NCBI GenBank assembly: GCA_031460175.1
Contig: JAVKGW010000002.1
Span: 62,001 to 126,000, forward strand
Length of the DNA: 64,000 nt
Reading direction: 5' to 3'
Origin: Armatimonadota bacterium
GTDB lineage: Bacteria; Sysuimicrobiota; Sysuimicrobiia; Sysuimicrobiales; Sysuimicrobiaceae
The position numbers were made by a program, and so were the translations under genes. Every line of letters starts with the position of its first letter. The stretch's first letter is position 1. Shown here one piece after another: positions 4,546 to 9,055 of the stretch. Under the pieces are notes generated by a model. The model was not told where the DNA came from and did not search any database. It worked only from the letters and a program-made list of their open reading frames with translations.

Positions 4546-6003
4546 TCACCTCTTCTTCGCACAAGCCCGCTCGTAGAGCTCCACGTACCGGCGCGCGGAC
4601 CGGTTCCAGGAGAAATCGGCCTGCATCCCGACCTGCATCAGTGTACGCCAAAGCGTGGGGTTCCGGAACACGTCCAGGGCCCGACGGATGGCCTCCCACA
4701 GGGCATCCGGAGTGTACGCCTCGAACACGAACCCGTTGGCCTCCCCGCGGGAGATGGCCTCCGGCGTAGCGTCCACGATGCTGTCCGCGAGTCCTCCGGT
4801 GGCCCGCACGATGGGCACGGTTCCGTAACGGAGGCTGTACAGCTGGTTGAGGCCGGAAGGCTCGAATCGAGAAGGCATGAGGAAGATGTCGCAGCCTGCC
4901 TCGACGCGGTGGGCAAGTCCTTCGTCGAACCCGATGCGGACCCCTACCCTCCGAGGGTGCCGCCGGGCCGCCTCCGTGAAGGCGGCCTCGTACCGGGGGT
5001 CGCCGGTGCCCAGCAGCACGAACTGCGCGCCTGCCGCCACCATCCGGTCCAGGCACGCCCAGACGAGATCCAGCCCCTTCTGGTCCACGAGACGTGTGAC
5101 CATGCCCAGGAGCGGCACGTGCGGATCCTCCGCCAGGCCGAACTCCGCCTGCAGGGCCAGCTTGCAGACGCGCTTTCCCGATAGATCCTCCGGCCCGTAC
5201 CGCGCGGGAATGTAGGGGTCAACCTGCGGATCCCAGACCGAGTAATCCACCCCGTTCAGCACCCCGTACAGGTCCTGACCGCGCATCCGCAGCACGCCGT
5301 CGAGTCCGTACCCGAACTCCGGCGTCTGGATCTCCCGGGCATACGTCTCGCTCACGGTGTTGAGGAGGTCCGCAGACAGGAGCGCTCCCTTCATGAGGTT
5401 GATCGAGCCGTAGAACTCCAGGTGGGACCAGTAGACCTCCTCGGAAAGGCCGGTCACGGGGAGCTGATCCCGGGGAAAGATCCCCTGGTAGGCCAGGTTG
5501 TGGATGGTGAAGAGGGTGGCCGTGCGACGGAGGGCGGGATCTTCCCGCTCCACGGTGTCCATGTAGACGGGGAGGAGGGCCGCGTGCCAGTCGTGGCAAT
5601 GGAAGACGTCCGGAATCCACCCGTACCCCCGGACCCAGTTCAGGGCAGCCCGGCAAAGGCAGGTGAACCGGGCGAGGTTGTCCTCATAGTCCCTCCCCCC
5701 CTCCCCGTAAATCCCGGGGCGGCCGTAGTAGCCCGGGTGATCCAGGAACCACACCGGGACCTTCCCCGCCAAGTTTCCCTCCCACACCTCCGCGGTCTCC
5801 GCCCGACCCCCGATGGATACCGAGACCTCCCCCACGCGGTTGAGCCCATGGCGGCTGGGATCCACCATGGCATATCGGGGTGTCAGGAGACGGACGTCCA
5901 AGCCCAGGTCATGTAGGGCGGGGGGGAGGGCTCCCGCCACATCCGCAAGCCCTCCGGTCTTCGCGAAGGGAACCACCTCGGCCACCACGAAGAGTACCCG
6001 CAC
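4546..6003 (-). CDS. glgA: Glycogen synthase, ADP-glucose type (GT5)
   Basis: GlgA transfers glucose from ADP-glucose to the growing alpha-1,4-glucan. The 485-residue protein begins MRVLFVVAEVVPFAKTGGLAD, with the GT5 KTGGL nucleotide-sugar loop at residues 15-19. The C-terminal half has the LGMVTRLVDQKGLDL and MPSRFEPSGLNQLYSLRYG blocks, including the catalytic Glu region. GTG 6003 is preferred because GGAGGAGGTC is just upstream and because the family starts here; an open frame continues upstream without family sequence. It leads the galT-VKOR-aminotransferase run. No glgB, glgC or glgP is in the window. Confidence 0.95.
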   Translation of the reverse strand: MRVLFVVAEVVPFAKTGGLADVAGALPPALHDLGLDVRLLTPRYAMVDPSRHGLNRVGEVSVSIGGRAETAEVWEGNLAGKVPVWFLDHPGYYGRPGIYGEGGRDYEDNLARFTCLCRAALNWVRGYGWIPDVFHCHDWHAALLPVYMDTVEREDPALRRTATLFTIHNLAYQGIFPRDQLPVTGLSEEVYWSHLEFYGSINLMKGALLSADLLNTVSETYAREIQTPEFGYGLDGVLRMRGQDLYGVLNGVDYSVWDPQVDPYIPARYGPEDLSGKRVCKLALQAEFGLAEDPHVPLLGMVTRLVDQKGLDLVWACLDRMVAAGAQFVLLGTGDPRYEAAFTEAARRHPRRVGVRIGFDEGLAHRVEAGCDIFLMPSRFEPSGLNQLYSLRYGTVPIVRATGGLADSIVDATPEAISRGEANGFVFEAYTPDALWEAIRRALDVFRNPTLWRTLMQVGMQADFSWNRSARRYVELYERACAKKR

Positions 6004-6421
6004 GACCTCCTCCGGCTGGCTGGGCACTGCCTGGGATGATGCCACGGAGGGTCCTTCAGGGCAAGCCCGGGCAAGGAGATGGTCTGGCCCGTGGGAGACC
6101 ACGGGAGAGCGAGATTTCTCGCGATTGAACGCGAATTTCCGGGTTTTTTGCACTTTTTGCTTGACAGAAGGCTCTGGATAGTACAAATTGCCCTTAGAAG
6201 GCCGGCGAGGGAAGTGACGGCCAACATCTCATGTCCGGCCCGGAAAACGGAACAGCTCCCCTTTGACCGGGACGTGCGGTTCCGGTCCGGGCGGAATTCT
6301 AAATTGTCGAAATTAACTCGTCCTTCTCTCCCGGTGGCAGTATAGAGCAAATTTCGTGCCAAACTGAACAGGTTCTCCGGAAGAGAAACTGGACGATGAC
6401 CGAACGAAGGAGGGGGATGGG
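6004..6421. other. AT-rich intergenic region upstream of the MNKWG module
   Basis: No convincing coding frame was found here. Base composition falls from the surrounding level to near 50 percent GC. A TTGACA hexamer at 6161-6166 reads to the right, with the weak -10-like TACAAA 15 bases on. The region separates glgA from the micro-ORFs and must hold promoters for both directions. Confidence 0.5.
6161..6187 (+). promoter_or_regulatory. Candidate rightward promoter
   Basis: A perfect TTGACA at 6161-6166 is followed after 15 bases by TACAAA (four of six matches to the -10 consensus). The short spacer makes this a weak call. If active it would transcribe toward the MNKWG micro-ORFs. Confidence 0.3.
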
Positions 6422-6439
6422 ATGAATAAGTGGGGATAA
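6422..6439 (+). CDS. Five-codon micro-ORF MNKWG with a strong ribosome site
   Basis: The frame ATG-AAT-AAG-TGG-GGA-TAA encodes only M-N-K-W-G. It is preceded five bases upstream by AAGGAGGGGG, one of the strongest ribosome sites in the window. The same five residues and a similar site begin the 32-residue ORF at 6521. It is either a leader peptide or the remnant of a tandem duplication in which a stop arose at codon six. No function is known. Confidence 0.4.
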   Translation: MNKWG

Positions 6440-6440
6440 T

Positions 6441-6500
6441 GTTCGTAAATATCGAATATGTAACTTCGTAATCCGGTGAAATTCGAGTAAAAATACGAAC
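6441..6500 (+). repeat. Long inverted repeat between the two MNKWG starts
   Basis: GTTCGTA (6441-6447) is the reverse complement of TACGAAC (6494-6500), and TCGAAT (6452-6457) of ATTCGA (6481-6486). Together they can form a two-part stem around a 23-base loop. It lies just after the five-codon ORF and ends seven bases before the AAAGGAGGG ribosome site of the next ORF. It is well placed to influence translation of the second ORF or to act as a protein-binding dyad. Confidence 0.5.
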
Positions 6501-6520
6501 AAAGAAAGGAGGGCAAGGAA

Positions 6521-6619
6521 ATGAACAAGTGGGGAGTGTACGTGGTGCGGCTGGCTCTGGCCCTTTCCACCCTGGCGAGCCTGCTGGTGGCGGGTGGGGC
6601 TGGCGGTAAGTGGGGTTAG
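6521..6619 (+). CDS. 32-residue hydrophobic peptide beginning MNKWG
   Basis: A strong AAAGGAGGG site eight bases upstream supports translation. The peptide has a short basic start (MNKWG, VVR), a hydrophobic core (about residues 11-25, LALALSTLASLLVA) and a Gly-rich tail ending GGKWG, so K-W-G occurs at both ends. It looks like a signal-peptide-sized secreted or membrane peptide. It lies 101 bases upstream of a membrane-anchored HD-GYP protein on the same strand. A peptide signal sensed by that protein is a hypothesis only. No family was recognised. Confidence 0.55.
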   Translation: MNKWGVYVVRLALALSTLASLLVAGGAGGKWG

Positions 6620-6720
6620 TTCCTCCGGCTCCTTGGAATTCTGAACGGACAAGGTGGGGCGGAAGTTGGAGCCTTCCCCTACCTTTCTTTTTGGCAAATT
6701 AATCCCCTAGCCCTCAACCA

Positions 6721-8172
6721 ATGGCCCGAAACTTGCTTACCCGTTCCCCGGCGGAGAGAACAACTGTTGCCGGGTGGGTGATGAAGGCTTCGCTACGGAT
6801 CTTTGTCGGCCTCTGCATCCTCGGCGGTGTCGCGGTGGTAGGGCAGGTGATTTACACCCTTGCCTCCACCAACAGCCCATACCGTCAGACTGACGCGGCT
6901 GCTCTCATGTTCTTAACGTTTCTGGGAATTCTCAGCGAACTCAAGCCAGTCCGGTACTATTTCGGCCCAGAAAATAGATCCGAAGTTACTCTTGGGCTTG
7001 CTGTATTCCTTCCTACACTCATGCTTTACGGGTGGCCGTTTGCAGTACTCGTCGCTATTCTTGCATCAGCTTCTACAGATTTGTACGATGGAAAACCCTG
7101 GCACAAGGTTGCTTTCAACGCTGCAAATTATGCCATAGCAACATGGTTTGCCGGACATGTTTACACATATGCAATGAGTAAGCATGTTTTTAGTGCAGCT
7201 TCTACTTTGGAAGAGATGCTTGGAGGTACTTTAAGTGGCTTAACCTTTTTCACAGTAAATATAGCTCTCCTTGGAATCGTATTATCCCTTTCGACCAACT
7301 TACCTTTATCTCAAATATTTTCTCAAAATATGCGGTTAATGATACCCGTCTTTGTGGCAGAAGTGGGCTTAGCTGTGGTCGCTGCTCTTTTCTGGACCCT
7401 ACAACCAGTCTCTGTCCTCCTCCTTATTCCTGCTGCTATCATGACCAAACTCTCCTACTCCAACTACGTCCAACTCCGCATCGAGACGGATAACTTCATG
7501 CTGGCCCTGGCCGAGGCCGTAGACGCCCGGGATCCCTATACGAGTCAGCACTCCCAGCGGGTGGCGGAACTGTGTCGGGCCATCGCCCGGCGCTTGCACC
7601 TTCCGGACCGCGAGGTGAACCGGCTTTACGCCATCGCCCGGGTGCATGACGTGGGCAAGATCACGGTCCGGGACGCGGTCCTTCTCAAGCCCGGGCCCCT
7701 CACCCCCGAAGAGCTCAAGGAGATGCGGGAGCACGTGGAGGCGGGTGCCCGCATCCTGGGGCATCTCAGTCTCTATCGGGACGTCCTCGACATCCTCCTG
7801 CAGCATCACGAGCGGCTGGACGGCTCCGGATACCCCAAAGGGCTGCGGGAGGACGAGATCCTCCTTCCTGCCCGTATCCTCGCGGTGGCCGATGCCTACG
7901 ACGCCATGACCACCCAGCGCCCCTACCGGCCCGCCAAGACCCCAGAGGAAGCCGTGCGGGAGCTGTACCGGCTCTCGGGCAAACAGTATGATCTTTCCGT
8001 GGTGCGAGCGCTGGAGGATGAGCTTCTGGAGCGACGCATGCTCGAGAAGCCTGTTCTGGCAGCCACCGAACCGACACCGGAACTCCTGGAGGCGATTGAC
8101 CCGGATGCTCCTCCTGCTGCCGTTCGCGTTGTCCCTCTGCGCCGGGTGGATCCGGGGCGGAAATCTTCGTAA
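6721..8172 (+). CDS. Membrane-anchored HD-GYP phosphodiesterase
   Basis: HD-GYP proteins hydrolyse cyclic di-GMP or related dinucleotides. Of 483 residues, about 22-250 form a membrane sensory region with seven or so hydrophobic segments, and about 258-425 the HD-GYP domain. Metal ligands H277, H309/D310 (VHDVGKI) and the HHERLDGSGYPKG motif (362-374) are intact, so it should be active. No ribosome site precedes ATG 6721; ATG 6781, just before the first membrane helix, is an alternative. The sensory half is clearly AT-richer than the catalytic half, with the change near 7450-7500 at the domain junction. The MNKWG peptide lies upstream and a DUF5317 gene overlaps downstream. Confidence 0.9.
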   Translation: MARNLLTRSPAERTTVAGWVMKASLRIFVGLCILGGVAVVGQVIYTLASTNSPYRQTDAAALMFLTFLGILSELKPVRYYFGPENRSEVTLGLAVFLPTLMLYGWPFAVLVAILASASTDLYDGKPWHKVAFNAANYAIATWFAGHVYTYAMSKHVFSAASTLEEMLGGTLSGLTFFTVNIALLGIVLSLSTNLPLSQIFSQNMRLMIPVFVAEVGLAVVAALFWTLQPVSVLLLIPAAIMTKLSYSNYVQLRIETDNFMLALAEAVDARDPYTSQHSQRVAELCRAIARRLHLPDREVNRLYAIARVHDVGKITVRDAVLLKPGPLTPEELKEMREHVEAGARILGHLSLYRDVLDILLQHHERLDGSGYPKGLREDEILLPARILAVADAYDAMTTQRPYRPAKTPEEAVRELYRLSGKQYDLSVVRALEDELLERRMLEKPVLAATEPTPELLEAIDPDAPPAAVRVVPLRRVDPGRKSS

Positions 8173-9055
8173 CCTGGCAGAGACCGAGTTTCGCCTCCCC
8201 TGGGCCGCCCTTCTGGGCATCCTGGCACAGCTTCTGATCTTCGACCCCACCTCTCGCCTGGTGCCGGTGCGGCTTCCCACCGTTCCCGTACACATCCTCT
8301 CCTACCTGCTCCTCGCGGCCTTCATCGGGGCAAACCGACGCCTCCCGGGGATGTGGCTGATCGGAATGGGAGTTTTGGCAAACGCGGTGGTGATCCTCAG
8401 CAACGGTGGATACATGCCCGCCTCCGAGGAGGCCCTTCGGGCCGCGGGCCGGTGGACGCTTCTCCAGGAGGCCGGAGGCACCTACAACAACTCCTCCCTC
8501 ATCGGTCCGAACACCCACCTGTGGTTTTTGGCGGACGTCTTCGCCATCCCGGCCGGCCTGCCGTTCGCGAACGTCTTCAGCCTCGGAGACGTTCTCCTTG
8601 CCCTGGGGATCCTGATCCTGGTCCCGTCCCTCATGGGAGCCCGACCCGTGCGGCCGGAAGCCCGGCTTGTGGCGGCCGTAGCAGGGGGGTTCCTGGTGGG
8701 GTACCTGGTGGGCAACATCGAAGCCCCCGCCGCCCGCTCCGTCGTCACCGCGCTCCAACCGCTCCCCAACCCCCACCCCACCGAAACCCCTTCCCCGCGG
8801 CCATCCCCTTCTCTGGCCGAACCCGTCTTCCCCCCGCAAACCCTCTACACCGTCCAAGTCGGTGCCTACCGGGACCTCGAAAACGCCAAGGCGATGGTGG
8901 CGCGCCTGGAACGCGACGGCTACAGCGCCCGCGTCCTCTCCGGAAGCCTTCACCGCGTGGTGGTGGGGGAACTCGAGACCGAGTCTCAGGCGCGTCAGCT
9001 CGCCGCCCTCCTCGCCCGCTCCGGATATCCCACCTACGTACGCCGGCTGCGTTAG
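8105..9055 (+). CDS. DUF5317 membrane protein with C-terminal SPOR domain
   Basis: The first 210 or so residues match DUF5317: several membrane helices, the ILSNGGYMP segment and the TYNNSSLIGPNTHLWFLADVF region. A Pro-rich linker (PNPHPTETPSPRPSPS) then leads to a SPOR-like domain (about residues 245-316, YTVQVGAYRDLENAKAMVARL). SPOR domains bind denuded septal peptidoglycan. ATG 8105 lies inside the end of the HD-GYP gene (68-base overlap) with TGGAGG 12 bases upstream, implying coupled translation. DUF5317 genes commonly follow HD-domain genes in Gram-positive bacteria. The function of DUF5317 is unknown. The 3' end overlaps the convergent glycerate kinase by four bases. Confidence 0.8.
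   Translation: MLLLLPFALSLCAGWIRGGNLRNLAETEFRLPWAALLGILAQLLIFDPTSRLVPVRLPTVPVHILSYLLLAAFIGANRRLPGMWLIGMGVLANAVVILSNGGYMPASEEALRAAGRWTLLQEAGGTYNNSSLIGPNTHLWFLADVFAIPAGLPFANVFSLGDVLLALGILILVPSLMGARPVRPEARLVAAVAGGFLVGYLVGNIEAPAARSVVTALQPLPNPHPTETPSPRPSPSLAEPVFPPQTLYTVQVGAYRDLENAKAMVARLERDGYSARVLSGSLHRVVVGELETESQARQLAALLARSGYPTYVRRLR

Follow-up and report, generated by a model that had tools for sequence, protein, structure and literature searches.

Short tryptophan-tailed peptides encoded before MASE9 membrane sensors suggest an undescribed form of bacterial peptide signalling

A peptide gene found in a 64,000-nucleotide stretch of Armatimonadota DNA (the window, hereafter) belongs, by its sequence pattern and gene order, to a large family of 24-36-residue peptides encoded before MASE9 sensors, with members in three bacterial phyla or more. 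The pattern suggests peptide signalling of an undescribed kind. The best reading of these data, to which we would give an even chance of being correct, is that the peptides are precursors of secreted micro-pheromones sensed by MASE9. The source genome (G000) is 2.49 Mb long, and its phylum is represented here by 43 genomes of a single order; a phylum with one class and one order would be consistent with Sysuimicrobiota (CSP1-3; PMC11604079). The letters G, f and L label genomes, families (f1 being that of the window) and extracted loci.

The original prediction, made from the letters of the window, had described two MNKWG starts with strong ribosome sites, the first frame stopping after five codons and the second continuing to a 32-residue peptide ending KWG. 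Both starts are present, each behind a purine-rich site, and both frames read as described; the second opens ATG AAC AAG TGG GGA and encodes MNKWGVYVVRLALALSTLASLLVAGGAGGKWG followed by a stop (Table 1). The two start regions form a 39-nt direct repeat with 74% identity. Across all 43 genomes of this class, the pattern GGAG plus [AG]TGAAYAARTGGGG has 14 matches, every one of them at the peptide locus of six genomes, and zero matches away from this locus or in the reversed control. Conservation in relatives had been proposed as the check on the frames, and it was found: the five-codon micro-ORF and the second MNKWG frame are both retained in all six f1 genomes having the locus, the seventh f1 genome (72% complete) giving no locus match. 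Across f1, the micro-ORF differs in its start codon, silent positions and stop only. The second frame is a 28-32-residue hydrophobic peptide ending GKWG in five of the six genomes, with the form MNKWG...GKWG within the genus and MNKWGKLVLxLSTLASLLVSAGAxGKWG in genus g3. Compared with the sister species within the genus, the 32-residue peptide has a dN/dS of 0.10, and the pooled pN/pS is 0.046/0.187. The duplication of the MNKWG starts is genuine, both frames behave as conserved coding sequence, and the peptide gene is under purifying selection. In G002 (L028), a genome without DUF5317, the second frame reads MNKWGRTKCERWA and a stop, in three tandem copies that each follow a Shine-Dalgarno site, and the hydrophobic core is lost. 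The five residues of the micro-ORF resemble the predicted tail (xGKWG) and come without a signal sequence; possibly, then, it is a variant without leader, but it may equally regulate translation or be left over from the duplication.

Table 1. Features of the peptide locus, in positions of the window
Feature	Position	Strand	Remarks
glgA	4546-6003	-	gene to which the putative TTGGCACGAAATTTGCT promoter points
TTGACA, possible -35 box of the micro-ORF/peptide transcript	6161..6166	+	236-330 nt 5' of the micro-ORF in 6/6 f1 loci
Sigma-54-type promoter TTGGCACGAAATTTGCT, towards glgA	6346..6362	-	consensus match only; a single site at each of the six f1 loci
Micro-ORF MNKWG-stop	6422..6439	+	ATG AAT AAG TGG GGA TAA, five codons; conserved in 6/6 f1 loci
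32-residue precursor MNKWGVYVVRLALALSTLASLLVAGGA-GGKWG	6521..6619	+	predicted cut after Ala27 (6599-6601); tail 6602-6616
Sigma-54-type promoter ATGGCCCGAAACTTGCT, 5' of HD-GYP gene	6721..6737	+	consensus match only; same position in 6/6 f1 loci
MASE9-HD-GYP protein	6781..8172	+	463 aa from likely start; longest frame from 6721
DUF5317 + SPOR protein	8105..9055	+	overlaps 3' end of HD-GYP gene; DUF5317 E 6e-34, SPOR E 4e-14

At each of the six f1 loci, the peptide frames are flanked by a pair of sigma-54-type promoters, one towards glgA and one before the HD-GYP gene, and RpoN is encoded in all f1 genomes. One could therefore regard the MNKWG repeats as untranslated DNA sites for a sigma-54 activator serving the two promoters, and AAGTGGGG indeed recurs three times. 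However, the changes within the frames are silent, and the f2 homologues keep the peptide in genomes without RpoN, leaving this explanation highly improbable. The promoter role of TTGACA is tentative because its -10 box is weak. Between this box and the glgA-side promoter, region 6196-6343 is structured (z -2.5 on the plus strand, -3.7 on the minus strand), as it is across all six f1 relatives, and matches no Rfam family; the structure could be a leader of glgA, on the minus strand directly after the sigma-54 promoter, or a leader of the peptide transcript. The motif AGAGCAA-N5-GTGCCA was rejected as a leader RNA motif, being the sigma-54 promoter read backwards. Elsewhere in the source genome (L118, 656-775; G000:C1), a sigma-54-type promoter is directly followed by a c-di-GMP-II riboswitch (54.5 bits). 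More sigma-54-type sites lie within what, by eye, appear to be prepilin gene regions (L119, L120, L121).

Might the short frames instead be cis-acting leader peptides, their translation governing the genes that follow through attenuation or ribosome pausing? The tandem arrangement of the two MNKWG frames, the conserved structured region upstream and the short, non-hydrophobic frames of G002 would accord with such a role. However, the long two-part hairpin that had been described between the frames did not hold up: its sole perfect arms are 8 nt long and 46 nt apart, the RNA folds no better than shuffled sequence (z +0.49; spacer z -1.1) and the sequence is not retained in the sister species. 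Nor, in the RNA and the spacer as folded here (spacer z -1.1, sister species diverged), did we find a conserved alternative structure from the frames to the next gene. With an amino-acid pattern that spans the entire peptide, and the same plan recurring before unrelated output genes in several phyla with varying gene order, control in cis by a leader peptide appears improbable.

The genes that follow the peptide largely bear out what had been proposed for them. The active-looking HD-GYP domain is recovered by HD_5 (E 4e-40, likewise above its curated cut-off) with the HDVGK and HHERLDGSGYP motifs intact, so that by sequence the protein has the features of an HD-GYP c-di-GMP phosphodiesterase and is predicted to hydrolyse c-di-GMP, and its membrane sensor part is assigned to MASE9 (E 3e-6, 27.6 bits against a Pfam cut-off of 24.3). 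The frame probably starts at ATG 6781 rather than at 6721, because the sigma-54-type promoter covers 6721-6737 and because, for most orthologues from other genera, the alignment begins only near residue 20. The next gene is the expected DUF5317-SPOR gene, its DUF5317 domain scoring 117.7 bits against a cut-off of 25. A PDB sequence search returned no DUF5317 relative, and structure prediction from two sequences was unusable (pLDDT 47). In family f5, DUF5317 genes stand beside mraZ/rsmH in the loci read (L104, L108, L112), and no such peptide adjoins them.

In other families of the order (f2, f4 and f6), MASE9-HD-GYP homologues lie in operons ordered peptide-DUF5317-HD-GYP, the peptide having the form MRW[KR]...GKW. 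At E<=1.8e-10, a 29-position peptide model picks out ten genomes, the next best match being at 0.002, and all ten carry DUF5317; only G012 is an independent find of the model, because the other nine sequences went into its construction. No Rfam riboswitch was found upstream in the window, and a c-di-GMP-I riboswitch (RF03167) heads the peptide operons of G011, G012 and G041, which belong to families other than that of the window, the match in G041 falling 0.1 bit below the curated score. Heading three operons, these riboswitches provide a tie to c-di-GMP that is independent of the protein domains. In G018 (L064), a c-di-GMP-I riboswitch precedes a different small secreted-looking protein and then a MASE9-HD-GYP relative without DUF5317.

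Two loci from outside this phylum came from the plasmid collection. The Natranaerobius locus encodes MASE9-HD-GYP and DUF5317 proteins and the peptide MNKVVLILVTLLGVVLAGGASFTWGGGG; the Euzebya locus, in which a GGDEF-EAL gene is followed by that of an EAL protein with a DUF5317-like N-terminus, carries the peptide MSPRTRKALMNLAALVAVILATGAPQKWG. The peptide gene is missing from the annotation in both of these annotated records. The MASE9-HD-GYP and DUF5317 genes of Natranaerobius are each annotated as two overlapping pieces (L137, 2313-4111), which we would attribute to frameshifts or sequencing errors. Searching the plasmid collection with two of the three MASE9 queries gave no matches. Among 396 sampled Actinomycetota genomes, 107 have DUF5317, and a Trp-tail rule matched 41 of 80 DUF5317 loci in this phylum, at least two of the matches (L239, L246) being false by eye. 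Two Streptomyces pattern matches (L047, L050) were set aside as chance, resembling by eye the start of another gene. Consecutive Trp-tail peptides of two kinds (...GARWKPN and ...GAGWKPY) occur 5' of DUF5317 and GGDEF genes in L215, L218, L223 and L228.

Together with the peptides described above, these loci gave a hand-curated set of 57 peptides, 47 of them distinct at 70% identity, which share one plan over 24-36 residues. Two or three basic N-terminal residues are followed by a hydrophobic core and small residues, with Ala at -1 of a signal-peptidase-like site, Gly before this Ala in 49 of the 57 and small residues at -3/-4; position +1 is variable, and the usually 4-6-residue tail has Trp at +2 or +4, although the Ala and Trp frequencies are partly built in because the search rule demands a small residue pair and Trp. 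A fairer measure comes from swapping the residue demanded by the same rule: with Trp it yields 57 ORFs, and with Met, Cys, His, Phe or Tyr only 3-10. High counts are obtained with Lys, Arg and Pro as well, at least partly because these residues occur in the same tails. The distance from the last charge of the n-region to the Ala is 17 residues in 42 of the 57 peptides, and in 20 of them Trp also occurs near the N-terminus. The family falls outside the models of Pfam and NCBIfam; a few single members give weak matches at chance level, and the window peptide has no NCBIfam match at E<=1. Our literature search, whose coverage leaves out most subscription papers, returned no paper that describes the peptides or names DUF5317; its sole match for MASE9 concerned an unrelated subject, with no ligand or partner named.

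In most of the Actinomycetota loci, the gene directly 3' of the peptide encodes a MASE9-type membrane protein and not DUF5317, and the outputs of these partners include HD-GYP, GGDEF-EAL and histidine kinase. In L175 the peptide precedes a SpoIIE protein that our custom model, but not Pfam, scores as MASE9, and SpoIIE is probably among the MASE9-linked outputs. This MASE9-like model was built on 13 proteins, and peptides were sought within 700 nt upstream of the frames that it found. In loci outside the model set, a peptide precedes 18 of the 24 strong MASE9-like frames (E<1e-20). The background rate is 1.6% for reversed sequence and 3% for random windows; the corresponding p of 5e-28 is optimistic because related loci are counted as independent. 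Four of the six misses (L221, L222, L245, L197) do have a small frame of comparable kind whose tail differs, and weaker MASE9-like frames have a peptide in 6 of 31 cases. In Nonomuraea, at a locus reached via HD-GYP similarity and not DUF5317, MFKVTVARLLTAVVLITPVIMLMGGVVPPGVSWT ends just before the gene, whose protein scores weakly for MASE9 in the custom model (0.0013); a comparable rule matches 0.1% of 300-nt reversed windows and 12 of 511 overlapping windows elsewhere in this locus. That outputs are exchanged behind one input domain points to MASE9 as the partner of the peptide. By gene order and conservation, then, a small precursor gene stands beside its sensor, as in pheromone systems. 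The original prediction of a peptide-signal module with an HD-GYP sensor is strongly supported in its core, by the conservation of frame, architecture and tail and by a peptide-MASE9 pairing that recurs across phyla with varied outputs; its hairpin is what falls away.

A small, hydrophobic peptide with basic ends could be a toxin-like membrane peptide of type I, or a bacteriocin. Its single fixed position next to the gene of a sensor, the riboswitches that control it in relatives and the fact that no adjoining antitoxin or immunity gene was noticed leave almost no weight on this option; like the leader peptide, which had also been offered originally, it has become less likely. The main rival, which we consider less likely than not, is that the peptide remains an intact single-pass membrane microprotein that serves the MASE9 sensor and/or DUF5317 as small subunit or regulator, anchored by Lys/Arg and Trp at both membrane faces. 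Three observations would suit such a microprotein: the peptides are tightly paired with membrane proteins, 20 of the 57 carry Trp close to both ends, and the spacing between basic residues is constant and near the length of a membrane span. However, the residues before the predicted cut (Ala at -1, mostly Gly at -2, small residues at -3/-4) resemble those of a signal-peptidase site, and a short hydrophobic core is kept while the tail varies.

We favor the secreted-ligand reading on three grounds: an Ala site is present, position +1 and the tail vary, and tandem copies differ in their tails (L217); the tail variation among these copies and in L221, L222 and L245 would fit ligand diversification. 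Let us assume that the 32-codon gene is translated and that the precursor enters the membrane as signal peptides do. Cleavage after the conserved Ala would then free a short Trp-containing tail, here GGKWG, which may serve as the ligand of the neighbouring MASE9 membrane domain, and its binding would set the activity of the output, here perhaps c-di-GMP hydrolysis by HD-GYP; DUF5317 might help in maturation or sensing. A plain signal peptide needs no constant charge-to-Ala spacing, which counts against secretion, and export is perhaps not the whole story in G002, because the MNKWG frames are kept there while the hydrophobic core is lost. More broadly, MASE9 may be a receptor of gene-encoded linear micro-pheromones across phyla, the ligand-receptor pair being coupled to outputs that are c-di-GMP enzymes, histidine kinases or phosphatases, with the MNKWG micro-ORF an exceptionally short leaderless signal gene; on this generalisation we lean slightly to the negative. 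If a peptide gene is indeed fixed before MASE9 sensors with exchangeable outputs, an orphan receptor would become testable. The family is one of genes that annotation has missed, as in the two annotated records examined.

Among known systems, the linear pheromones of Firmicutes (Phr/Rap, SHP and ComS with Rgg, and the enterococcal pheromones cut from signal peptides) are similar in having a small precursor gene adjoining the sensor gene, a short linear product, tail diversification and, for several products, Trp or other hydrophobic residues. Unlike those systems, whose receptors are mostly cytoplasmic regulators that act after import, the locus here has a membrane MASE9 sensor adjoining, and the precursor is little beyond a signal sequence plus 4-6 residues. 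The Agr-type systems (AgrD/AgrB/AgrC) likewise pair a hydrophobic mini-precursor with membrane partner genes, and their membrane receptor can be a histidine kinase. In contrast, the window peptide has no Cys or thiolactone and so does not qualify as an AgrD-type precursor, AgrB was not found at the locus, DUF5317 is unrelated to it by family search, and the MASE9 outputs here include c-di-GMP enzymes. The Thermotoga maritima peptide TM0504 is tied to exopolysaccharide and GGDEF genes; a literature search on it found nothing, and we take it as a lead only. As to the protein families themselves, the window genes are members of MASE9 (PF20972) and DUF5317 (PF17248) by Pfam score, and what is new is the peptide partner. 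Some quorum signals are themselves sensed by c-di-GMP enzymes: AI-2 by a dCACHE cyclase and BDSF by RpfR (PMC8846402). These resemble the proposed system in that a cell-cell signal acts directly on c-di-GMP turnover and differ in that the signals are small molecules, the passages on quorum molecules in that review naming no peptide (PMC8846402); if our reading is correct, peptides would join these small molecules in acting directly on c-di-GMP enzymes.
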